DNA of 64,000 nt from Anaerolineaceae bacterium. Lineage in GTDB: Bacteria > Chloroflexota > Anaerolineae > Aggregatilineales > Phototrophicaceae. Shown here piece after piece: positions 42,586 to 54,964 of this stretch. The DNA is taken from the NCBI GenBank assembly GCA_002699585.1, contig PABP01000034.1:96562-160561 (forward strand), written 5' to 3'. The position numbers and the translations under genes were made by a program. Numbering within the stretch: position 1 is the first letter of the stretch; every line of letters starts with the position of its first letter. Below the pieces are notes generated by a model. It ran no database searches, was not told the origin of the DNA, and saw only the letters and a list, made by a program, of their open reading frames with translations.

Positions 42586-43860
42586 TTAGGTGGCGATAGG
42601 CAAACTAAACCAGAATGTGGTGCCATTGGCGTTGCTTTCGACACCTATCTCACCGTGTAATTTTTCGATGAGTAGCTTGACCGTTGTTAATCCGATGCCG
42701 GTACCCGATCTTTGCCGATCTTCGTCATGGAGGCGTGTAAACGGCTCAAAAATTTGGACACGTTTCTCTTCAGGAATGGCAGGGCCGTTATTGGTGATTG
42801 AGAACCGCAGAGATCGGTCGGGAGTCTCAGCACTGATGCTGATTAGCGGTGGCGTGCCACCATATTTGCAGGCATTGCTGATGAGATTTGTCCAGATATG
42901 CTCAATCCAGGAGTATTGGCCTTGGGCTAAGGGCAGATTGTCCAGGCTTGGGTCGAGCTGGATGTTGGCGGCGAACAATTGAATGATCGGTTGCATAGAG
43001 GTGATAGCGTTCAATATCACTGCCTTGACATCGATTGTGTCGTAAATGGTGTATATATCACTCCTGACGCTGGCCAGAAGCAGGATACTCGTTATCCAAT
43101 CGCTCATACCCATGCTTGCGGAACTGATGTATGTTGCCTTCTGGATAATTTGATCTTTGCTCATTTTATCGATGTAATTACGCAGAAAATCTGCCGAGCT
43201 AATAATCGTTGCAATCGGTTGCTTCAGGTCGTGCGCCATGGCATTTATGGCTGCTTCCGTGTCGTTTAATTTGCGTTCTAGCTCGTCGATCAAGCGTCTT
43301 AGATCTTGGTTTTCACTATGTACATATATGTTCTCAAGCACTGGTGCAAGAATCCAGCCTGTAAATTCAATGACGGCTCGGTACTCGTTTGAGAACTTTT
43401 GTTGCTCGCGCCACATGACTGTTAGAACAGCAATTGGCTTACCGTATCGCTGAATCAATATATGGTATAGAGAAGCGACTCCCTGTTTTTGATAAAAGTC
43501 ACGTGATGCATCCGTAAATACCCCAAACTCGGCAATATCCTCAACAAACATCGGTGGCCCACCGCTCATTATCCAAATCTTGGCCAGAGATTCATCATCG
43601 ATATTAACGGTAAATGGCCAAGGACCATTTTCATTATTTTGATTATGCCAAAATGCTTGGGGTTCCAACTTTGGTAATGCGCCAACATCTATAACGCAGC
43701 GGCGAAGATCTATGCAAAGGCAATCATGGTTGAGTGGGAATTCGGACAATCCCTCAAGTACTGCTTCGACAGTTTCAGCTTTGATAATATGCCGAAGCAA
43801 GGAGAATACCATCGACGAGAAGGGGGGATAATCAAAGATCGATGCGTATTCAGTTCCCAT
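42586..43860 (-). CDS. Sensor histidine kinase with N-terminal GAF-like domain
   Basis: A 424-residue soluble kinase. Residues 15-180 resemble a GAF domain (VFSLLRHIIKAETVEAVLEGL). A coiled linker follows to 205. HisKA has H210 (MAHDLKQPIATII), an H-D-L-K variant. HATPase motifs are LISNACKYG, ITNNGPAIP and GTGIGLTTVKLL. No adjacent regulator is in the same operon; the Crp/Fnr gene is divergent. Confidence 0.88.
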   Translation of the reverse strand: MGTEYASIFDYPPFSSMVFSLLRHIIKAETVEAVLEGLSEFPLNHDCLCIDLRRCVIDVGALPKLEPQAFWHNQNNENGPWPFTVNIDDESLAKIWIMSGGPPMFVEDIAEFGVFTDASRDFYQKQGVASLYHILIQRYGKPIAVLTVMWREQQKFSNEYRAVIEFTGWILAPVLENIYVHSENQDLRRLIDELERKLNDTEAAINAMAHDLKQPIATIISSADFLRNYIDKMSKDQIIQKATYISSASMGMSDWITSILLLASVRSDIYTIYDTIDVKAVILNAITSMQPIIQLFAANIQLDPSLDNLPLAQGQYSWIEHIWTNLISNACKYGGTPPLISISAETPDRSLRFSITNNGPAIPEEKRVQIFEPFTRLHDEDRQRSGTGIGLTTVKLLIEKLHGEIGVESNANGTTFWFSLPIAT

Positions 43861-44134: not shown

Positions 44135-44806
44135 ATGATTACTGCCCCGGATTTTACGAAGCTCCGTAATTACATGATGTTCCGTGAACTTGACGAAAAC
44201 TCGCTGAGCGAATTGGCAAAACACTGCCAGTACCTCGAACTGCAAGCGGGGAAGACGCTCTTTGAACAAAACGAGGCCAGTGATGCCCTCTATATGCTGG
44301 AAGATGGCCAGATACACGTCGTTCGCCAATATCCTGATGGCGAACAGGTCATCCTTGCCACAGAAGGCCCTTACTATGTTATCGGGGACCTGTCGATGTT
44401 GACAGGCAGCCCCCGCACGGGCACGGTCGTCGCTGTGTCTGACTGCACGCTCATCCGCCTGAGCCGCGAAGCCTTTGATGATGTTTGCAGCCGCGTCCCC
44501 GGTATTTCTGCCAGCCTTGTCACTTATGTGGCCAAGCGGCTGTATCGACTAAACCTGCAAGTACGCGAGCACGCCATTGGCAATGTCGCGGCGCGTGTCG
44601 CGAGCCTGCTGATGTTATTGTCCGGTAGGGAATCAGACACGAAGAACACCTCAATTCGCATCAACCGCATGGCACGGGCCGCCGCCACCGATGCCGACAA
44701 AGTCGAGCGCATCCTACATGAGTGGGACGAGGCGGGTTACATCAGCTACGATGGCCGCCAGGTGACCCTCAACGATATCGACAAGATACGCGACCTGGCA
44801 GGGTAG
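44135..44806 (+). CDS. Crp/Fnr family transcriptional regulator
   Basis: A 223-residue regulator with an N-terminal cyclic-nucleotide-binding fold (FRELDENSLSELAKHCQYLELQAGKTLFEQNEASDALYMLEDGQIHVVRQ), a central dimer helix (YVAKRLYRLNLQV), and a C-terminal winged HTH at about 170-223 (RMARAAATDADKVERILHEWDEAGYISYDGRQVTL). No FNR-type cysteine cluster, so ligand is unclear. It precedes the archaellum cluster in the same direction, 477 nt away behind a terminator, and could control it. Confidence 0.88.
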   Translation: MITAPDFTKLRNYMMFRELDENSLSELAKHCQYLELQAGKTLFEQNEASDALYMLEDGQIHVVRQYPDGEQVILATEGPYYVIGDLSMLTGSPRTGTVVAVSDCTLIRLSREAFDDVCSRVPGISASLVTYVAKRLYRLNLQVREHAIGNVAARVASLLMLLSGRESDTKNTSIRINRMARAAATDADKVERILHEWDEAGYISYDGRQVTLNDIDKIRDLAG

Positions 44807-45283: not shown

Positions 45284-45865
45284 ATGTTTAATCGTATCAA
45301 CAAACTGACCCGCAACGAATCTGGTCAGACCGCCCTCGAAGCAGCCATCATCCTGATCGCATTCATCGTCGTCGCTACTGTCTTCGCATTTTCGATGCTT
45401 TCCGCTGGTACCGAATCCACAGAACGTGGTAATGAAGCCATCTACGCCGGTCTCGAAGGCGTACAGTCCTCACTAGCCATTCGCGGCGACGTCATCGCTA
45501 AAGAAGACGGCACGACAGCCGGCCAGGTTGGCGAAGTTATCTTCACACTGGCGATTGTTTCCGGTGGCGATCCTATCGATATGACCGACACCAGTGGTGA
45601 GAATGTCATGATCATCGGCTACCGCGACGGTGAACAGTTCTTGAATGAAGTTGACTGGGAATCCAACTGGATTGGCACCAATGATGGTGACACCATGCTG
45701 GAAGATGGCGAATTGGTCGAAATCACTGTTAGCCTCGCTAGCTTGACGACCCCGTTGAAGGGCAACACCGAATTCACTTTGGAAGCTAAGCCACCCACGG
45801 GTGCCGTCCTGAACATCACCCGCTCAACAGCCGCCTCCATCGAAGCTGTGATGGACCTGCGCTAG
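45284..45865 (+). CDS. arlB: Archaellin (archaeal-type filament subunit)
   Basis: A 193-residue filament protein. The class III signal is short: MFNRINKLTRNESG with cleavage after G14, followed by QTALEAAIILIAFIVVATVFAF with Glu at +5, the pattern of archaeal archaellins rather than of bacterial type IVa or Flp pilins. The segment TESTERGNEAIYAGLEGVQSSLAIRGDVIA is the archaellin region after the helix. The C-terminal 110 residues are beta-rich and exposed (VGEVIFTLAIVSGG, ELVEITVSLASL, AKPPTGAVLNITRSTA). Only one archaellin gene is present. It should be processed by the A24 peptidase at 52632 and assembled by ArlH, ArlI and ArlJ encoded downstream. Confidence 0.92.
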   Translation: MFNRINKLTRNESGQTALEAAIILIAFIVVATVFAFSMLSAGTESTERGNEAIYAGLEGVQSSLAIRGDVIAKEDGTTAGQVGEVIFTLAIVSGGDPIDMTDTSGENVMIIGYRDGEQFLNEVDWESNWIGTNDGDTMLEDGELVEITVSLASLTTPLKGNTEFTLEAKPPTGAVLNITRSTAASIEAVMDLR

Positions 45866-45896
45866 ACACGATAGTCTCGATACACATGATTCTCTA

Positions 45897-45938
45897 TAAG
45901 GAAGTGGGTCGAAAGCAAGACAGTCGGCCCACTCCTTA
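45897..45938 (+). terminator. Stem-loop after the archaellin gene (attenuator candidate)
   Basis: TAAGG-A-AGTGGGTCG pairs with CGGCCCACTCCTTA, a 14-bp stem with one bulged A, 13-nt loop. There is no T-run after it, so it is more likely an mRNA-stabilising or attenuating hairpin that lets the filament subunit be made in excess over the machinery genes. Confidence 0.7.
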
Positions 45939-46173
45939 CGAATAAATTAGAACGAACATCGTAGCTCACAAAAATAATTTCCTTAAAAACACGCCAAACA
46001 AATTTTATTACAAGCCTTTTAAAAAGTGACAATTGGCAGGCACGGTTCATAAATGTCACGATCCAATGCAAATTCGCGCATGATCTTCCATAACGAACAC
46101 GCCTGACCACTGTAACCAATCAAACGCATACGCAGTCACAGGGAAACACGCGTAAGGTCGAATGGAGTAGCGA

Positions 46174-46845
46174 ATGAATCTCGAACGTCGGGTAAAAGAC
46201 CTCGAACAAGAGGTTGCTATCCTCAAAGGACAAATACAAGAAACACTTCTTGAGATTCATGACAAGCTGCTGACTAATCAGTATGCCGACCTGCGGTCTG
46301 CGGACAACCGTCCGGCACAGCTCCCCATGATCCAACCCCCGGCAGCCCAGACACAAAAGTTTGACCAGGGTGCCCGCAAACACGAGAATGCCCCCAACTC
46401 CAAAGTTGTCACACTCAAGGACTTTGTCGAGAACGCAACCCTGCCCGATGCCGACGATGATGACGACCTGGATAGCGATTTTGACTCCCCAGAAGATTGG
46501 GACCAGATCGAAAAGAGCGAGGAATGGGCACTGCGTGTTGCTAAGCGCGTCGGCTTCCAGGGCACACGCGAGTTGATCCAGAACATGATGGCCGATGGTC
46601 AGATCACGGAAGCCAACGGTCACGCTTTGCTCAAGTACCTCAAGTTATATGCGCGCCGCGTGGCGGACCAACGTCGAGCCAAGCACGATGGTCATGAGCT
46701 AGAACAAGACGGACATCGTACGCAAAAAAAAAGCACAGCGCAGGATGATGGCGACGAAGAAGACGAAAACGTCAGCCGCAATTTGATCTTGCGCCTGATT
46801 GCGGGTGTCGGCAATGCTGGCATGCGCTCCAAAAAGCGAGCATAA
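46174..46845 (+). CDS. ArlD/E-like archaellum protein with coiled-coil N-terminus
   Basis: A 223-residue protein. Residues 1-35 form a coiled coil (NLERRVKDLEQEVAILKGQIQETLLEIHDKL). A low-complexity acidic stretch (DADDDDDLDSDFDSPEDWD) follows. Residues 117-165 match the ArlD/E core: EEWALRVAKRVGFQGTRELIQNMMADGQITEANGHALLKYLKLYARRV (archaeal form roughly W..L.E.VG..G....L..Y...GWI....L..L). The basic tail is unlike the family. In archaea, ArlC/D/E form the cytosolic ring that takes the chemotaxis input; here one gene stands in that place. 308 nt after arlB, 3 nt before the next gene. Confidence 0.75.
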   Translation: MNLERRVKDLEQEVAILKGQIQETLLEIHDKLLTNQYADLRSADNRPAQLPMIQPPAAQTQKFDQGARKHENAPNSKVVTLKDFVENATLPDADDDDDLDSDFDSPEDWDQIEKSEEWALRVAKRVGFQGTRELIQNMMADGQITEANGHALLKYLKLYARRVADQRRAKHDGHELEQDGHRTQKKSTAQDDGDEEDENVSRNLILRLIAGVGNAGMRSKKRA

Positions 46846-46848
46846 CGC

Positions 46849-47361
46849 ATGGATAAAATCATTTCTACAGCTCTCCTCACTGTTGTTAGCATGATCCTGG
46901 TCGTGGTCATGTTCAACGCAGCGTATCCTGCTGTGCAGGAGGGTAGCCAGTCCATCTCATCCATATCCCAACGTGCAGAAACAGAAATGCGCTCGGACAT
47001 CACCTTGATCCACAGCGCGGCAGAACTTGACCAATCCGGTTGGTGGCAAGATACCAACGGCAATGGTCGTTTTGATGTTTTTACCTGGGTGAAGAACACA
47101 GGCATTACCCGCCTCAATAACATTGACGGGATGGACATCTTCTTTGGTCCAGAGAGCAACTTTACCCGCATCCCGCACGAGAGCAACGCGGGCGGTAGCC
47201 TTCCTTATTGGACCTACGCCGTTGAGGATGGCGGCGAGTGGGTGCCGACTTCCACATTACGCATTACCGTGCAATACGGCGCGCCGCTGTCATCAGGGCG
47301 CTATTTCATTCGTGTCGTCACGCCCAATGGCGAGTACGTCGACGAAGTCATCAGTTTTTAA
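46849..47361 (+). CDS. ArlF/G-like archaellum stator pseudopilin (probably ArlG)
   Basis: A 170-residue membrane-anchored protein. An N-terminal hydrophobic helix (STALLTVVSMILVVVMFNAAYP) is followed by an extracytoplasmic beta domain: TEMRSDITLIHSAAELD ... FTWVKNTGITRLNNIDGMDIFFG matches the ArlG pattern (R.D..I......YVKNTG...L....DVFI). In archaea ArlF and ArlG hold the motor against the S-layer. Which of this gene and the next is F or G is unclear. Starts 3 nt after the ArlD/E-like stop. Confidence 0.8.
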   Translation: MDKIISTALLTVVSMILVVVMFNAAYPAVQEGSQSISSISQRAETEMRSDITLIHSAAELDQSGWWQDTNGNGRFDVFTWVKNTGITRLNNIDGMDIFFGPESNFTRIPHESNAGGSLPYWTYAVEDGGEWVPTSTLRITVQYGAPLSSGRYFIRVVTPNGEYVDEVISF

Positions 47362-47409
47362 GTTGCGCTTTTTGGTATAGCGCTTAGGTCATTAGCGAGA
47401 AACGGAACG

Positions 47410-48225
47410 ATGGAAAACGTCTTTAGCGGCATTATCGTCTTCTTCCTGATTATGCTTTCCTTGCTGACGCTGTTCGGCGCCGGGTTAGAGTCTCAGATTG
47501 AAGTCGTGGAAGCATGGCAGGCCATGCAGGATCGGGCGATGCAGCGTATCGACGCCGACATGGATGCCGCTGACCTCACTTTCACCGAGACGGGCGCGCG
47601 TCTGGTCCTGGCTTACAACGGCCAGTCCCCGCTGCATCGCTTTGACAATTGGGACGTCATCGTCAACTACTACGACAATGACAGCACCCCGGAATATCAC
47701 ATTGCGTATCTACCATATGGCTCTGGTGGCTGGCAGGTAGGCAATATCTACCTCGATTATGGGCTTGCCGAGGACGAAGTTTTTGAGCCGGACATGCTGA
47801 ATGCTGGCGAGACAATCGCGCTTGATTTGACGCTTACGGAATCGGTCGGTTATGGGCAGTCCATCCAGGTGACCGTCATGAATGAACATGGCGGCATGGC
47901 CCAGACGATGGCGCGGCGTAACGTGCCACCCAGTCAGACAACGCTGACCGATGTGTATGTCAACAGTGGTGAGGCCGTCACGATTGATAGCAGTATGCTG
48001 CTATTCGATGATCCTGACCACAGCCCGACAAAAGTCATCTATACCATCACCAGCGGCCCGACTGAGGGCACACTCAGTTACCCGACGCAGTTCACTCAGG
48101 CGGCCATCAACAACAATGGTCTAGTCTATACGCACGGCGGCGGCGCGGCTGATAGCTTTACATTCACCGTCAGCGACGGGGTCGACACGGTCGGACCCTT
48201 CACGCTGAATATTATCGTCAACTAA
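47410..48225 (+). CDS. ArlF/G-like protein with C-terminal cadherin-like domain
   Basis: A 271-residue protein. The N-terminal helix VFSGIIVFFLIMLSLLTLFGAGL is followed by a heptad region QIEVVEAWQAMQDRAMQRIDADM and a beta fold with LVLAYNGQSPLHRFDNWDVIVNYYD (ArlF/G pattern). Residues about 178-271 form an added CSPG/cadherin-like domain (TLTDVYVNSGEAVTIDSSMLLFDDPDHSP ... YTITSGPTEGTL ... DSFTFTVSDG). Archaeal ArlF and ArlG end after the first domain, at about 150 residues. The extra domain probably anchors to the bacterial envelope. Confidence 0.8.
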   Translation: MENVFSGIIVFFLIMLSLLTLFGAGLESQIEVVEAWQAMQDRAMQRIDADMDAADLTFTETGARLVLAYNGQSPLHRFDNWDVIVNYYDNDSTPEYHIAYLPYGSGGWQVGNIYLDYGLAEDEVFEPDMLNAGETIALDLTLTESVGYGQSIQVTVMNEHGGMAQTMARRNVPPSQTTLTDVYVNSGEAVTIDSSMLLFDDPDHSPTKVIYTITSGPTEGTLSYPTQFTQAAINNNGLVYTHGGGAADSFTFTVSDGVDTVGPFTLNIIVN

Positions 48226-48249
48226 AAGGCTCACGGAGCGCAAACGATC

Positions 48250-48981
48250 ATGGCAGAGGCTGGCGTCAAGACAGACGAGCAAGAAAAACAAGAAGAGACT
48301 GTCAATAAAAACGTCATCTCCAGTGGCAACACGGAGCTAGATAGCCGCATTGGTGGCGGTTTGCCCCTGGGTTCCCTGGCTCTGATCGAAGGCGCATCGG
48401 GTACTGGCAAATCGGTGCTGTCCCAGCAGATCGCCTATGGTGCTTTGCAGCAGGGTCTGCGTGTGGTCATGTTTACCAGCGAGAATACCGTGCGCAGCAT
48501 GGTCAAGCAGATGGATACCATCGACATGAGTGTGCTGGATTTCCTCTTGATTCGCCGTTTGCGTGTTTACCCGGTGGAGTTCTCGCAGGGTGGTCAGGAT
48601 TCCTCAAAGTACTTGCTCAACGCGCTCAATGCCGAGGAAAACGCTGATCTCTTCATTCTTGATTCACTCTCTGTCGTGGCTGGCAGCATCACGTCTAGCG
48701 CGATCCTGCAATTCTTTGAAGAAGCCAAGCAGCTTTGTGACCAGGGCAAGACCATCATGGTGACATTGCATCCGCAGGCCCCAGCCCTTATGGAACAACT
48801 GCGCTCATTGTGTGATGCCAACCTGGTCCTTGAAACGGAGCGCGACGGTCAGAAGCTGGTCAAAATGTTGACAGTAGCCAAGATACGTGGCGCATCCTCC
48901 GTGACGGGCGCCATCGTTGGTTTTGATGTCGAACCGGGTTGGGGCATGCGCGTGATCCCCATCAGCAAAGCACGAGGATAA
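48250..48981 (+). CDS. arlH: ArlH, KaiC-like archaellum ATPase regulator
   Basis: A 243-residue RecA-fold protein. Walker A is GASGTGKS (48-55), and ADLFILDSLSVVAGS holds Walker B. The N-terminal VISSGNTELDSRIGGGLPLGSLALIEG is typical of ArlH and KaiC. ArlH is not found in bacterial type IV pilus or Tad systems, so it is the diagnostic gene for an archaellum. It binds ArlI and gates its activity according to nucleotide state. 24 nt after the preceding gene and 5 nt before arlI. Confidence 0.92.
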   Translation: MAEAGVKTDEQEKQEETVNKNVISSGNTELDSRIGGGLPLGSLALIEGASGTGKSVLSQQIAYGALQQGLRVVMFTSENTVRSMVKQMDTIDMSVLDFLLIRRLRVYPVEFSQGGQDSSKYLLNALNAEENADLFILDSLSVVAGSITSSAILQFFEEAKQLCDQGKTIMVTLHPQAPALMEQLRSLCDANLVLETERDGQKLVKMLTVAKIRGASSVTGAIVGFDVEPGWGMRVIPISKARG

Positions 48982-48986
48982 GAACG

Positions 48987-50675
48987 ATGGCTCACTCCGT
49001 ACTTCCATTTTTAGCAGACGAAACCGCACCTAGTCGCAATGCCGCGCTCGCGCGCAGCATGTCGCCTGAACTGCGTCAGGCCTGTGAAGACTCCGACTTT
49101 TTGAGCGACTATGTGATGTCGCTGCCTTTGTCGGAAATTGGCATGCCTGAATATTATGCAGATCCACCGCGCAGCCTGGGTGGCATGGAAACGCCCAACC
49201 TCATCTACCCGACGCAAGAAGGGTTGTTCACCCATATTTACCCGGACCCCAATGGTGCGCGGCATCATTACATCTGTGTGGAACCCATCGTCGGCATCGA
49301 CATCAACAAGCTGCTGGCGCGTATTGAAGAACGCCTGACGGTCTATGCTGAGCAAATTGGCCGCATTGAAGACAAAGATGAAAAACGCGAGTTGATTCTC
49401 AACCTCATTGATCGCTTTTGCACGACAAGACCCGCATCGCCGGACGAACGTCGCAGCAATCAGATTCGCGTCACCGAGCGTGAGCTGCGCGCGGTCCGCT
49501 ACCAGATTCTGCGCGACAAGATCGGCCTGGGTGTGTTGCAACCACTGCTGCTGGACCCCTTCATTGAAGACATCAGTTGTAGTGGGGTGGGGCATATCTT
49601 CATCGAGCACAAGATCTTCGGCAGCGTGCAATCGTCCATCGTGTTTAAGACGCACGAAGAAGTCGATGATTTTGCCGTGTCCCTGGGTGAGTGGATCAAA
49701 AGCCCGGTGACAGTCCGCAGCCCATTGGTCGATGCCGTGCTGCCGGATGGCTCCCGTATCAACATTGTCTATGGCCGGGAAATTTCTAAGCGTGGTAGCA
49801 ACTTCACCATTCGTCGTTTTGGTGGCAAGCCGCTGAGCATCTTAGAGCTGATCTCCTTCGGTAGCTGCAACTACATGATCGCCTCGTATCTGTCGTTCAT
49901 GCTGGAAGAGCACCTGAACATGTTCGTAGTCGGTGCGACAGCATCCGGTAAAACCACGCTGTTAAATGCGCTCAATACATTCATCAAGCCCGATGCCAAA
50001 ATCGTGACCATCGAAGACACGCCGGAAGTGGTCGTGCCGCACCACAACTGGGTTCAAGAAACCACCCGTCAGGGGTCCGGCGATAACAAAGGTAGCGATG
50101 TCGGCATGTTCGAGCTACTTAAAGCGGCCTTGCGTCAACGCCCCGACCGCATCATCGTCGGTGAGATTCGTAGTGTGGAAGCTGTCGTCGCCTTCCAGGC
50201 CATGCAGACCGGTCACGGCGTCATCTCGACTTTCCATGCCGCTTCCGTAGAGAAGCTGATTCAGCGTCTAACGGGTGATCCGATCAACATCCCCAAGACC
50301 TACATCGACAACCTGAACCTGGCCGTGATTCAGTCGGCGGTACGCCTGACCAACGGCAAGAGCGCGCGTCGCATTCTCAGCGTCAACGAAATCATCGGCT
50401 ATGACCCGACCAGCAACAGCTTCTCCTTCTTAGAAGCCTTCCGTTGGAACCCGGAAACGGACGTTTTCGAGTTCCCCGGCTATATGAACAGCTACCTGTT
50501 GGAAAATGTGATCGCAGTCAAGCGGGGCATCCCGCCGCGTAAACGCCGTCAGATCTACGATGAGGTCAAGCAGCGCGCGCGCATCTTCGAAAAGCTACAC
50601 AAAGAAAAGGGAGTGACGGACTTCTATGACTTCTTCAAAGTCCTCGCAGAAGCGCGCAAACAAGGTCTCTTTTAA
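48987..50675 (+). CDS. arlI: ArlI archaellum assembly and rotation ATPase
   Basis: A 562-residue secretion ATPase of the GspE/VirB11 superfamily. The Walker A motif is GATASGKTT (316-324), the Asp box TIEDTPEVVVPHHNW, Walker B RPDRIIVGEIRSVEA, and the His box TGHGVISTFHAASVEKLIQRLTG. The N-terminal region (80-200: YICVEPIVG, LLLDPFIEDISCSGVGHIFIEHKI) is archaeal-type. ArlI powers both filament growth and rotation. Start ATG 48987 is chosen behind GAGGATAA; upstream in-frame codons are inside arlH. Ends 50 nt inside the next gene. Confidence 0.93.
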   Translation: MAHSVLPFLADETAPSRNAALARSMSPELRQACEDSDFLSDYVMSLPLSEIGMPEYYADPPRSLGGMETPNLIYPTQEGLFTHIYPDPNGARHHYICVEPIVGIDINKLLARIEERLTVYAEQIGRIEDKDEKRELILNLIDRFCTTRPASPDERRSNQIRVTERELRAVRYQILRDKIGLGVLQPLLLDPFIEDISCSGVGHIFIEHKIFGSVQSSIVFKTHEEVDDFAVSLGEWIKSPVTVRSPLVDAVLPDGSRINIVYGREISKRGSNFTIRRFGGKPLSILELISFGSCNYMIASYLSFMLEEHLNMFVVGATASGKTTLLNALNTFIKPDAKIVTIEDTPEVVVPHHNWVQETTRQGSGDNKGSDVGMFELLKAALRQRPDRIIVGEIRSVEAVVAFQAMQTGHGVISTFHAASVEKLIQRLTGDPINIPKTYIDNLNLAVIQSAVRLTNGKSARRILSVNEIIGYDPTSNSFSFLEAFRWNPETDVFEFPGYMNSYLLENVIAVKRGIPPRKRRQIYDEVKQRARIFEKLHKEKGVTDFYDFFKVLAEARKQGLF

Positions 50676-52119
50676 GATCGTTTCGGAGTTCGACCTCTTT
50701 TATCACCTGACCTATATGTCAGCGATGTCGTCCGCCGGAATCTCGCGCAGTAAAACATTTGAACTGGCTGCAGAAGCGCGTACGGAAGCGGCTGTGTATT
50801 TCGTCGCCATCAACCAGTTGGTGAACGAACTGCGCTTTGACTACCCGGAAGCCTGCCGCCGCGTGGGTACGGCGGCTAAATCCAAGAATATGCGTAGTTT
50901 CTTGCTGCGCATGTCCGATGCGCTGCGCTCCGGTGAGCCACTTTCGGAGTTCTTGACGCGCGAAGCTAGCGTGATGAGCACCGCCTATGAGAACAACTAC
51001 GAGCGTAAGATCGAAACGCTCAAGCAATGGTCGAATGCTTTCTCGTCAGTTGTGATTTCGGTCGCGCTGATCATTATCATTCAGATTATTTCAGCGATGA
51101 TCTACAGCATGGACCTGGGTGCGATGACCGGCATGGTCATTGCTGGCATCATGCTGAGTAGTTTCGCCGCATGGATCATCTGGCGGTCGGCCCCAGCGGA
51201 GTCGATGGTTATCAAGCTCGGCAAGGGTAGGGGGTCCAAGAAGCAGCAGCGGACGGAGCGCTTGTTCCGGCTGGTGATGCCCTTATGCGCGATGGTCATT
51301 GCTGTGCTCTCGGTGATGGGTGTCGAGGTTGGCGTCCAATTGCTGATTATCTCCTTCATGCTGGTCCCGGTAGGGCTGGCGGGCTTCCGTGCGGATAACC
51401 TGCGCGTCGCCCAGGACGATGACTTCAGCCAATTCCTGCGCTCAACGGGTAGCATGGCCGCATCCAGTGGCACGACCGTCAATGAAGCCCTGCTGCGGCT
51501 CGACCTGAGTTCCTTCCCATCATTAGAAGACGACATTGAACGCCTCAACAAGCGCCTCAAAGCGCGCATCGACCCCATGCTGTGCTGGCGTCAGTTCGGC
51601 CTGGATACGGGCAGCAAGCTCATCTCCGAAGTGGTGGAAATCTTCTATGGCGGGGTCTTGATCGGTGGCGCGCCGGAAGTCGTCGGCTATACCTGCTCGC
51701 TGTTCGTTGCCAAAGTGACCCAACTGCGCGCCAAGCGTCGCCTGGTGACGGGCACATTTTCCGCGCTGACGACCATCATGCAGGCCATTGTTGCTGGTTT
51801 GATGGTCTTCGTCATGGCGATTGTCAATAACTTCGCCATCATGGTCAAAGACATTATGCCGTCGGGCGATGCTGCTGCGGAAGCCCAGCAGTCGGTCAAT
51901 ATGGGCATGGCTCAGTTCACGGATGCACAACTGGCGCAACTCGCCGCCATGACGTCACTCATGGTGGTGGTGATGGCATTCGTTGGCGCGGCAGCAATCA
52001 TCCTCAGCGACGGTGGCTATAAGCTCAAGGCCACATTCTACGTCGCACTGATGATGTTTATTTCTAGCATTTGTATGCTGGTGGTGCCGCCAATGGTGGC
52101 TGGCATGCTGACGAATTGA
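50626..52119 (+). CDS. arlJ: ArlJ archaellum platform membrane protein
   Basis: A 497-residue polytopic protein with two T2SSF-type modules. The first is at about 25-140 (DLFYHLTYMSAMSSAGISRSKTFELAAEA) and the second at about 265-385 (DFSQFLRSTGSMAASSGTTVNEALLRLD), separated and followed by transmembrane segments (VISVALIIIIQIISAMIY, LLIISFMLVPVGLAGF, the last GGYKLKATFYVALMMFISSICMLVV). The length and two-module layout fit ArlJ. It overlaps the end of arlI by 50 nt, which is long but the frame needs it for the first residues; GGGAG lies 11 nt upstream. Confidence 0.92.
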   Translation: MTSSKSSQKRANKVSFKIVSEFDLFYHLTYMSAMSSAGISRSKTFELAAEARTEAAVYFVAINQLVNELRFDYPEACRRVGTAAKSKNMRSFLLRMSDALRSGEPLSEFLTREASVMSTAYENNYERKIETLKQWSNAFSSVVISVALIIIIQIISAMIYSMDLGAMTGMVIAGIMLSSFAAWIIWRSAPAESMVIKLGKGRGSKKQQRTERLFRLVMPLCAMVIAVLSVMGVEVGVQLLIISFMLVPVGLAGFRADNLRVAQDDDFSQFLRSTGSMAASSGTTVNEALLRLDLSSFPSLEDDIERLNKRLKARIDPMLCWRQFGLDTGSKLISEVVEIFYGGVLIGGAPEVVGYTCSLFVAKVTQLRAKRRLVTGTFSALTTIMQAIVAGLMVFVMAIVNNFAIMVKDIMPSGDAAAEAQQSVNMGMAQFTDAQLAQLAAMTSLMVVVMAFVGAAAIILSDGGYKLKATFYVALMMFISSICMLVVPPMVAGMLTN

Positions 52120-52133
52120 GCTGAGGAGTCATC

Positions 52134-52628
52134 ATGAGCGTTATTGAACTCATTTTTGAAAATAAAGTCGTACTCATCAGCCTGCTTGCTGTCATCGTGC
52201 CCCAGCTTGTGGCGCTCTTGCTGGTCCTGGGCATGGGCATCACGCGCCTGTTCAAATATCTGGCGGAGCAAAAGCAGCAGCAGCGTGAACATGTGCGAGA
52301 GATGGACCTGCTGGGCGAACAGCGCAGCGAAGTCGATATGTCCGGCCTGGATGAGGTCGAGCTTGATGACGAGGACGCCATAGGCGAGCCAGAAGAAGAG
52401 GAAGAACTAGAGGACGACCCGCGCGCCGCTGATGACAATGAGCCGGAGGGCTTTGACCTCAATTCCGAGAGTGATATGCAATCCTTGCTAGCTGATGTCT
52501 TCGTCGATGACACGATGGACCAGAAAGCCGAAATGCTGCTGGGTGAAATCGAACCAATGGGCGTGGATATGCTGCTCGAATTTGCCGAGGCCATCAACCA
52601 GCGCTTACCAGAAGCGGTAGGAGAGTAG
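52134..52628 (+). CDS. Acidic single-span membrane protein in the archaellum cluster
   Basis: A 164-residue protein. One transmembrane segment (about 13-37: VLISLLAVIVPQLVALLLVLGMGI) is followed by a basic stretch (KYLAEQKQQQREHVRE) and a very acidic, disordered part (DEVELDDEDAIGEPEEEEELEDDP), ending in a helix ADVFVDDTMDQKAEMLLGEIEPMGVDMLLEFAEAINQRL. I recognise no family and know of no equivalent in archaeal arl operons. It lies between arlJ and the prepilin peptidase, with 14 and 3 nt spacing, so it is likely co-expressed. Candidate bacterial-specific archaellum component. Confidence 0.75.
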   Translation: MSVIELIFENKVVLISLLAVIVPQLVALLLVLGMGITRLFKYLAEQKQQQREHVREMDLLGEQRSEVDMSGLDEVELDDEDAIGEPEEEEELEDDPRAADDNEPEGFDLNSESDMQSLLADVFVDDTMDQKAEMLLGEIEPMGVDMLLEFAEAINQRLPEAVGE

Positions 52629-52631
52629 GGC

Positions 52632-53267
52632 ATGTCGATTGAATTTGTTTTGTATGCCATCATTGCGGCTGTTGCGGCCTACTTCTCATCGGAAATTGGC
52701 GATTTTCTGGTAGGGCTTGCTGGCCATGAACGCCAGTCAGCGCCGATGGCAACGAAACAACGCTTGCTGTTCTCAGGCATGACGTTGGCCATCGGGCTGG
52801 CGATTGCCGCGACCATCACCGCCCGTGAACAAGCGCTGCTGTGGTTTGCACTGCTCGTCTACTTCATGCTAATCGCCGTGATTGACCTGCGCTATCGTCT
52901 GGTCCTCAATTTGATGACCTATCCCGGCTTGTTAGTGGCTGTCGCCCTCAATCTGGCCCTGTTCGATGGCCAGTGGCGCTCGATCATCATTGGCGGCATT
53001 TTCGCCTTTGGCATCTTCTTTGGCGCCGCCTGGTTTAGCGGTGGCGTCGGTGGTGGCGATATCAAACTGGCCTCGGTGATTGGCCTCTTGTTTGGTTTCC
53101 CGCTGGTGACGCCCGCGCTGCTGATCGGTGGGGGCGCTGGGGCCATTTATGCCGTAGCTTTAATGCGCCAGCCCGCAGAAGTACAAAAGGGAAAAGCCTT
53201 TGCCTATGCGCCTTTCCTGTGTTTCGGGGTACTCGTAACGTTTTTGTACGTGATAATAGGGGGGTAA
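52632..53267 (+). CDS. A24 prepilin/prearchaellin peptidase (ArlK/PibD type)
   Basis: A 211-residue polytopic aspartic peptidase. The two catalytic Asp lie in AVIDLRYRLV (cytosolic face) and GGGDIKLAS (GxGD motif). There is no N-terminal methyltransferase domain and no zinc cysteines, as in archaeal FlaK/PibD-like enzymes. It should cut the class III signal of the archaellin and the pseudopilin-like ArlF/G proteins. Encoded 3 nt after the acidic protein. Confidence 0.9.
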   Translation: MSIEFVLYAIIAAVAAYFSSEIGDFLVGLAGHERQSAPMATKQRLLFSGMTLAIGLAIAATITAREQALLWFALLVYFMLIAVIDLRYRLVLNLMTYPGLLVAVALNLALFDGQWRSIIIGGIFAFGIFFGAAWFSGGVGGGDIKLASVIGLLFGFPLVTPALLIGGGAGAIYAVALMRQPAEVQKGKAFAYAPFLCFGVLVTFLYVIIGG

Positions 53268-53271
53268 ACAG

Positions 53272-53883
53272 ATGGCGGCTGTTGCCCAGGATATGATGAC
53301 ACAACCACAGGTCGAAGAAACCAAAGAAACGACTGAAAAACCGACTCGCAAGCGTGGCTTGCCGATTGCGCGGATTATTCAGTTTCTCATTATCAGCAGT
53401 CTGGCGATGTCCTTCATCCCACTCAGCCTGATTATTCAAATTTTCGGTGAGGAAGAAGCGGTGCTCCAGGAAACGCTGACTGTGCTGGAAAGCCAGTTAA
53501 CGGCTGAGCCGGACGTTGACCCGGAAGAAGAGGCCCTGCGGACGACCAACCTGCAATTGATGTCGCAGATTAGTTCCTTGCAGCAGTTGACGGATTCCCT
53601 GGGTAGCCACAATCGGCTCTGGCCAGACATCATGCGCCTGCTGCTGGACTACGACGCCAATTATCTGGAAATTACCAGCCTGGTACAGGAAAACAACATG
53701 CTGCGGCTGGAAGGCAATGCCAACGCACAAGAAACCATTCTCAATTATGTCTCGCGGGTGCAAGATGCGCCCTTTGTCGTCGATGTCCAGATCGGCAACA
53801 TCGCGCTCGACCAGGAAGCCGAGACAGAGCGCAATCTGACTTTTGCGGTTAGCGTCCGCCTGGAGGATATGGGCGATGATTAA
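53272..53883 (+). CDS. PilN-like membrane protein in the archaellum cluster
   Basis: A 203-residue bitopic protein. The N-terminus is cytoplasmic and charged (PQVEETKETTEKPTRKRG), with a transmembrane segment at about 36-60 (IIQFLIISSLAMSFIPLSLIIQIFG). A coiled-coil follows (LQETLTVLESQL, then NLQLMSQISSLQQLTDSLGS). A C-terminal ferredoxin-like fold (NYLEITSLVQENNMLRLEGNANAQETILNYVSRVQ ... FVVDVQIGNIA) is typical of PilN. Type IV pili use PilN with PilO as alignment proteins; archaella do not. 4 nt after the peptidase gene. Confidence 0.75.
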   Translation: MAAVAQDMMTQPQVEETKETTEKPTRKRGLPIARIIQFLIISSLAMSFIPLSLIIQIFGEEEAVLQETLTVLESQLTAEPDVDPEEEALRTTNLQLMSQISSLQQLTDSLGSHNRLWPDIMRLLLDYDANYLEITSLVQENNMLRLEGNANAQETILNYVSRVQDAPFVVDVQIGNIALDQEAETERNLTFAVSVRLEDMGDD

Positions 53884-54964
53884 TGACTACGAGGAACAGA
53901 GCCAATTCGCGGAAATCATCCCGGTTGTATTACGGCTGCTGCCGCTGCTTCTGATTATCGGTTTGTTGGGCGCGACAGGGATTTTTGCGACCACAAAAAT
54001 CCTGCCTGCATGGCAGTCCTATGATTTGGTGCAGCAAAATGTGACCCTGGCTGAAGATCAGCTTGCCACGCGCGAAGCTGAGGCGGGTAATTCCGATATG
54101 ATTACAATCCTGACAGCCCGTAATGAGAGCGTGCTGGAAGACACCAAAGCCAAAGCGGTCGACCTGCTGACAGAATCGCAAGTTTCGGAAATCATTGGCC
54201 ATTTGTTCCAGTACGCCGATGAAAGCGGCACCACCGTTGATGTACTCTCGACAGAAGATCTCGTAGACGCTGCCGATACCAGTTATCGCATTCACCGTGT
54301 GCAGGCCCAGGTTCGCGGCTCCACATCGCGCTTGATGAATTACGTGCTGCGCCTGCGGGAGTCACTGTTGCCTAGCGTCGAGATTTCCAATGTGTATATC
54401 GAACCGCGTGATGACTACTCGCAGCTCTACATGGATATTCAACTGTATACGTCGCCATTTGCTGATGGCAGCGCACTGGATAATCTGCCGAGCTATGAGG
54501 TTCCGGCACCCTTCGATCCGACTGTGCCCCAAGCCTTGCTCGACCCGACACCGACGCCCATGCGACCAACGGCTGTCCCGGCTGCTGTGGAAACCCAGCA
54601 GGCCATTATTGAAGCTGATGATTGCCCCGGCGCGCCGCCTACCTTGTATGAAGTCGGTGATGTAGTGATCGTTTCCTTTATCGACAAGGGCGCACTCAAT
54701 GTGCTATCAGAGCCGCGTACAAGCGGGAATCAGCCCACGTCGATGACATTGGCCTATGATGGCGAAGTCCTGCGCCTGCAAGAGGGGCCGATCTGTGGCC
54801 AGTGGGAAGGGCAGGCGGTACGTTATTGGCGCGTGCAGCGTAATGGTATCGGCGGCTGGGTAGGGGAGGCCACGCTGACAGATCGCTGGCTGTGCCCAAC
54901 CGATAACGCGCACTGCACCAGCACGGAATATCTGGTGCCGACGGCGACGCCAGCCGCTTCATGA
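53876..54964 (+). CDS. PilO-like protein with C-terminal SH3-like domain
   Basis: A 362-residue protein that overlaps the PilN-like gene by 8 nt. ATG 53876 follows GGAGG at 8-9 nt. One transmembrane segment (about 14-37) leads to a PilO-like extracytoplasmic fold (LVQQNVTLAEDQLATREAE, then SEIIGHLFQYADESGTTVDVLST ... RSTSRLMNYVLRLRESLLPSVEISNVYIEPR). Residues about 230-362 carry a linker rich in Pro and Thr and an SH3-like domain (GDVVIVSFIDKGALNVLSEPRTS ... WRVQRNGIGGWVGEATLT) with a possible disulfide (CPGAPP, CGQWEG). The SH3 domain may bind peptidoglycan and anchor a PilN/PilO frame to the wall. Confidence 0.75.
   Translation: MINDYEEQSQFAEIIPVVLRLLPLLLIIGLLGATGIFATTKILPAWQSYDLVQQNVTLAEDQLATREAEAGNSDMITILTARNESVLEDTKAKAVDLLTESQVSEIIGHLFQYADESGTTVDVLSTEDLVDAADTSYRIHRVQAQVRGSTSRLMNYVLRLRESLLPSVEISNVYIEPRDDYSQLYMDIQLYTSPFADGSALDNLPSYEVPAPFDPTVPQALLDPTPTPMRPTAVPAAVETQQAIIEADDCPGAPPTLYEVGDVVIVSFIDKGALNVLSEPRTSGNQPTSMTLAYDGEVLRLQEGPICGQWEGQAVRYWRVQRNGIGGWVGEATLTDRWLCPTDNAHCTSTEYLVPTATPAAS

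Follow-up and report, generated by a model that had tools for sequence, protein, structure and literature searches.

Bacterial archaella have already been described. Sivabalasarma et al. 2025 (PMC12488501) report 244 complete archaellum clusters in Chloroflexota, transferred from euryarchaea, together with a solved structure of the L. aerophila archaellum and cells that swim; they place the class III peptidase outside the archaellum locus and describe a separate, incomplete transfer of the archaeal-pilus type in two Anaerolineales. In archaea, ArlF grips the S-layer, a contact reported to be necessary for swimming (PMC8978795, PMC13319060). For the Chloroflexota archaellum, Joest et al. 2026 (PMC13319060) propose PilN/PilO as the anchoring scaffold: pilO and pilN are reported in 34 of 235 archaellated genomes with peptidoglycan genes, PilO-LysM lies near the archaellum in three genomes only, anchoring in members without PilN/PilO is stated to be unknown, and the re-anchoring of the motor in a bacterial envelope is left open. 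What is said of these papers here and below refers to the parts of them that were examined.

Here, we analysed a stretch of 64,000 nucleotides (the window) that forms the end of a 160-kb contig (PABP01000034.1) of an Anaerolineaceae bacterium, whose genome assembly totals 6.70 Mb (42 contigs) with a completeness of 96%. At positions 45284–54964 of the plus strand, the window carries 11 co-directional genes in the order arlB, arlD/E-like, arlG, arlF, arlH, arlI, arlJ, X8 (an unnamed gene), A24 peptidase, pilN-like and pilO-like, among which the only gap above 50 bp is the 308 bp located 3′ of arlB. Judged by sequence, it is near certain that this Chloroflexota bacterium carries an archaellum gene cluster at the locus. 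An earlier note on this DNA had announced such a cluster as its headline, which is not new because PMC12488501 has published the phenomenon; the genes it listed (archaellin, D/E-like, F/G, H, I, J and A24 peptidase) are present, and it overlooked the cadherin-like ArlF, PilN/PilO and X8. These overlooked parts lead to our main reading, which we hold at a probability of roughly 0.6, namely that the motor would be anchored in the bacterial envelope by a cadherin-tipped ArlF together with the PilN/PilO pair.

Both stators, ArlF and ArlG, were identified at the locus. The arlG gene (46849..47361, 170 residues) precedes arlF (47410..48225, 271 residues), matching the arl2 order, and ArlG, assigned from this order and a profile score below the cut-off, reaches 29.9 bits on NF052591 (cut-off 110) and 18.0 bits on the ArlF model. 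ArlF is composed of an N-terminal helix, a FlaF beta-sandwich extending to about residue 170, and a cadherin-like domain at about residues 172–271. The FlaF fold is predicted by a structure model with a predicted local distance difference test score of 93.5 and two recognisable halves, while the cadherin-like domain is shown at the level of sequence, the C-terminal part matching PF16184 above its cut-off. A profile of the domain matched 15 open reading frames (ORFs) in 98 archaellum loci (14 distinct, one genome being present twice), all of which are this stator gene. Specifically, the domain occurs in 14 of the 15 visible ArlF proteins of the clade to which the window belongs in the ArlI tree, L075 being the exception, and was seen in no ArlF outside that clade; in the Caldilineaceae metagenome-assembled genome (MAG) L085, ArlF lacks it and PilO bears a LysM-like motif. 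The domain was not found in the examined parts of PMC12488501 and PMC13319060, whose supplementary tables may list some, and literature on archaella and cadherins, judged by title, held nothing on stators.

Other stator-like proteins of unusual size were observed. Five loci titled Dehalococcoidia or Chloroflexi encode stator-like proteins of 328–535 residues, far above the archaeal size, with no Pfam domain that accounts for the added length (L096:5819-7423, L105:7429-8412, L119:2903-4003, L135:5267-6367 and L111:8018-9007), and L107:406-3174 encodes, in a stator-like slot, a 923-residue protein with beta-propeller repeats (PD40, 11 stretches).

The pilN-like (53272..53883, 203 residues) and pilO-like (53876..54964, 362 residues) genes end the run, and the same run occurs in relatives. 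The PilN-like protein scores 18.9 bits on PF05137, below the cut-off of 22.8, and is assigned with the help of its position, which is the same in relatives. The PilO-like protein has the PilO fold, from which a long linker leads to a barrel at the C terminus, and its structure model predicts a PilO core with an SH3-like tail. Among 24 distinct PilO proteins, nine carry a LysM tail (Pfam), four an SH3-like tail as in the window, and five a lectin-like tail (by a motif made here). Neither the SH3-like tail nor the variable tails of relatives were found in the examined parts of PMC12488501 and PMC13319060, whose supplements may hold some. Since FtsA, encoded beside ftsZ, is the sole PilM match in the 96%-complete genome, there is no visible sign that PilN/PilO belong to a complete type IVa pilus. 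Furthermore, the genome contains a division and murein cluster, with murD, murC, murB and ftsZ above cut-off and murG and ftsW just below; therefore, the cell should have peptidoglycan.

A rotary motor requires a fixed stator. From the domain architecture, we infer that this requirement would be served by ArlF and the PilN/PilO pair: ArlG would span the space above the membrane, ArlF would cap ArlG, the added domain of ArlF would extend to a partner in the wall or outer layer and bind it, and PilN/PilO would form a collar through the peptidoglycan, with a tail suited to each lineage's envelope. By analogy with archaeal work, the A24 peptidase would mature the archaellin, ArlI and ArlJ would first build and then turn the filament, and ArlH and ArlD/E would set its mode or direction; X8 might act on the motor from the cytoplasm, as a tether or a tuning factor, which is a guess. 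More tentatively, and at slightly less than even odds, the stator as a whole may have been re-engineered, the ArlF of one lineage having gained one or two cadherin-like domains, PilO acting as a collar with a lineage-specific wall-binding tail, and X8 being a core component. The main competing explanation is that this is an archaellum as published, in which the cadherin-like domain of ArlF serves adhesion or cell–cell contact and PilN/PilO alone anchor the motor, as PMC13319060 proposes for anchoring. Fold matches of ArlF indeed include adhesins, cadherins and S-layer proteins, and L075 and all ArlF proteins seen outside the clade lack the domain. However, the domain is confined, among all ORFs of the 98 loci, to the one subunit that in archaea has the role of gripping the envelope, and we regard the adhesion explanation as unlikely, though a serious contender.

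The identity of the filament and its motor was assessed by profile searches, matches to solved structures and a tree. ArlB (45284..45865, 193 residues) has a class III signal, with G14 as the likely last residue before cleavage and Glu at +5, and scores above cut-off on PF01917 (86.3 bits) and TIGR02537 (22.2 bits); the solved structure that it matches best, in an alignment to the mature chain, is 9i5h (181 bits), from the L. aerophila archaellum. ArlH (48250..48981, 243 residues), a KaiC-like ATPase, scores 246.9 bits on the FlaH model NF004723 (cut-off 194) versus 67 bits on KaiC and 32 bits on RadA, in line with the earlier note, which had taken it for ArlH; on the stricter model NF052589 it scores 192.3 bits, below the cut-off of 215, and among solved structures FlaH 4yds gives 109 bits. 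The RecA fusion chain 3cmu has the top total, 112.4 bits, with no single stretch that passes, and is not read as RecA kinship because the ArlH profile scores favour FlaH. ArlJ (50626..52119, 497 residues), the membrane platform with seven hydrophobic segments by hydropathy, matches the ArlJ/FlaJ model over its full length at 351.6 bits, below the cut-off of 570, this being its best family by far.

The motor ATPase ArlI (48987..50675, 562 residues counted from an internal ATG) scores 630.7 bits on the archaellum motor model NF058587 (cut-off 550), 198.7 bits on the bindosome ATPase model, and 169.4–171 bits on the TadA model, whose cut-off is 373. Among solved chains, FlaI 4ii7 (435 bits), which we take to be the S. 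acidocaldarius protein, is nearest, followed by 2oap (282 bits) and CpaF (about 145 bits). A quick tree was built from the window, the full set of 80 named ArlI loci and 10 TadA-like rows (299–358 bits on the TadA model, below the same cut-off), and carries a long-branch warning (L002_TadA). In it, the TadA-like rows separate from the archaellum ATPases with a support of 100, as the earlier note anticipated, and 10 archaeal-type rows form one group with a support of 96 that includes L134, labelled Fermentibacteria. One might suspect that a Tad or type IV pilus locus has been mistaken for an archaellum, in that TadA and TadB/C have a common origin with ArlI and ArlJ, the names PilN and PilO come from type IV pili, and two other ATPases of the genome are TadA-like (299 and 336 bits, again below cut-off); given the ArlI scores, the CpaF and FlaI matches, the tree and the presence of ArlH and an archaellin, such a misreading is hardly credible. 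The locus is not a Tad locus, because ArlI scores 630.7 bits as an archaellum motor against 169.4 bits as TadA and the tree splits the two, and a Tad identity of ArlI was rejected on profiles, structures and tree alike.

A non-rotating pilus of archaeal type that has retained archaellum genes would have a precedent in the incomplete transfer reported in PMC12488501. Such a pilus is improbable, given ArlH, both stators, an ArlD/E-like gene, an archaellin closest to the L. aerophila filament, and an ArlI that scores far higher on the archaellum model than on the bindosome ATPase model. The predicted cytoplasmic switch component, ArlD/E-like (46174..46845, 223 residues), belongs to a family reached in 67 of the 98 loci by iterated profiles; PF04659 matches 9 of 30 aligned members and not the window protein, whose D/E membership is by iterated profile only. 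ArlC was not identified at the locus. Genes for CheA, CheB, a response regulator and CheW form one cluster on another contig, and a search of the 96%-complete genome gave no match to CheF or flagellin.

The A24 prepilin/prearchaellin peptidase, arlK-like (52632..53267, 211 residues; PF01478, 55.7 bits), lies inside the locus, and 21 of 26 listed loci have the peptidase in the same orientation, no more than about 2.5 kb 3′ of arlJ, while in the remaining five it is on the opposite strand and further off. A second A24 peptidase of 284 residues is encoded elsewhere in the host genome.

X8 (52134..52628, 164 residues) begins with a hydrophobic anchor, continues with an acidic linker and carries a conserved motif at its C terminus; the window protein has no Pfam match, and profile searches gave no consistent family. 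Iterated profiles reach it in 55 of the 98 loci, and in 40 of 42 loci (the window and 41 named ones) its start lies no more than 200 bp from where arlJ or arlI ends; in the remaining two, an upstream start makes it overlap arlJ. In a held-out test, in which an ORF passes if it beats all but at most five of 500 shuffles, a profile trained on 22 Anaerolineae-clade rows passed 28 of 41 other bacterial and three of eight archaeal-type ORFs, and one trained on 55 bacterial rows likewise passed three of the eight. In a ranking of locus ORFs, the ORF after arlJ comes first in six of the eight archaeal-type loci, L134 included. The ORFs 3′ of arlJ in archaea resemble X8 by eye, and the held-out test is weak there; the evidence for kinship between them is no more than suggestive. 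Our initial view that X8 is specific to Chloroflexota was dropped after this comparison, and a role as a chemotaxis adaptor would be a guess. X8 was not found in the examined parts of PMC12488501 and PMC13319060, whose supplements may list some, nor did we find literature on an archaellum gene downstream of arlJ. In 11 distinct relatives, a gene for an FHA-GAF-histidine kinase, assigned by Pfam in two (L065:13727-15412 and L062:3985-5652) and by similarity in the other nine, lies directly 3′ of X8; the window has no such gene after X8.

ArlI scores above cut-off in 17 of the 298 genomes of the class sample, the window's included, with G006, whose ArlI is broken by a contig end (513.5 bits), counted apart. 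Within the sample, it was found in no further genome of the same family (13 examined) and in one of seven others of the same order; its presence is patchy. The earlier note's proposal of gain by transfer is published (PMC12488501) and agrees with the ArlI tree, although the tree, with its 10 archaeal-type rows, is itself silent on direction. Contamination of a bacterial bin by archaeal DNA deserves thought since metagenome bins mix, and L134 (contig QNDS01000161.1, labelled Candidatus Fermentibacteria) is a probable instance: its archaellum cluster is likely mis-binned, the ArlI being placed next to that of Methanosarcinales L133 on a very short branch. For the window, contamination is extremely improbable: the contig spans 160 kb, and many other MAGs with Anaerolineae or Chloroflexi in their titles have the same genes in a run together with PilN/PilO, their ArlI being up to 73% identical.

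Two further observations concern gene copies. A second, solitary archaellin gene lies on another contig of the host genome (G000:C27:135066-135563; locus L151:9025-9603, minus strand), with 82.8% DNA identity to arlB overall, 90–100% over the first 180 bases and lower thereafter, and no other arl profile match in the surrounding 19 kb. In L120, L125, L141 and L096, titled Dehalococcoidia or Dehalococcoidales, two tandem arlI-like ATPase genes lie 5′ of arlJ. As for regulation, a scan for promoter and terminator sites gave no excess over shuffled sequence; a Crp-type regulator gene (44135-44806, plus strand) upstream of arlB and, beyond it, a histidine kinase gene (42586-43860, minus strand) are possible regulators of the cluster.

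If the anchoring proposed here is correct, the motor is held by parts seen in none of the archaeal loci examined. Together, the cadherin-like ArlF, the SH3-tailed PilO, the in-locus peptidase and X8 suggest how an archaeal motor may have been re-anchored in a bacterial envelope and which parts change when the machine crosses between domains of life. In particular, the added domain of ArlF and the varied PilO tails are named parts that can be deleted, swapped and imaged.

Among known systems, the Tad pilus shares ATPase and platform ancestry with the locus and is excluded by the ArlI scores and tree, and the type IVa pilus alignment complex (PilM/N/O/P/Q) differs in that the only PilM match in the window's genome is FtsA and the PilO at the locus has a long linker and barrel. 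The archaeal-type loci (n = 10, several short) have no PilN, PilO or A24 profile match, unlike the window, and in the seven with both stator genes the second stator has 160–175 residues versus 271 for the window ArlF. The archaellum proteins of S. acidocaldarius are matched in FlaF fold and FlaI sequence, and the arl2-type archaellum of Methanotecta shares ArlB, D/E, G, F, H, I and J in one run. The closest system is the L. aerophila archaellum (PMC12488501, PMC13319060; PDB 9i5h), which, according to the papers, has a PilO with LysM and a peptidase outside the locus, whereas the window has a predicted SH3-like PilO tail and the peptidase in the run, and its ArlF carries a cadherin-like domain; the two share the phylum, the arl set, the arlG–arlF order, the archaellin, PilN/PilO nearby, peptidoglycan genes and the absence of flagellin.
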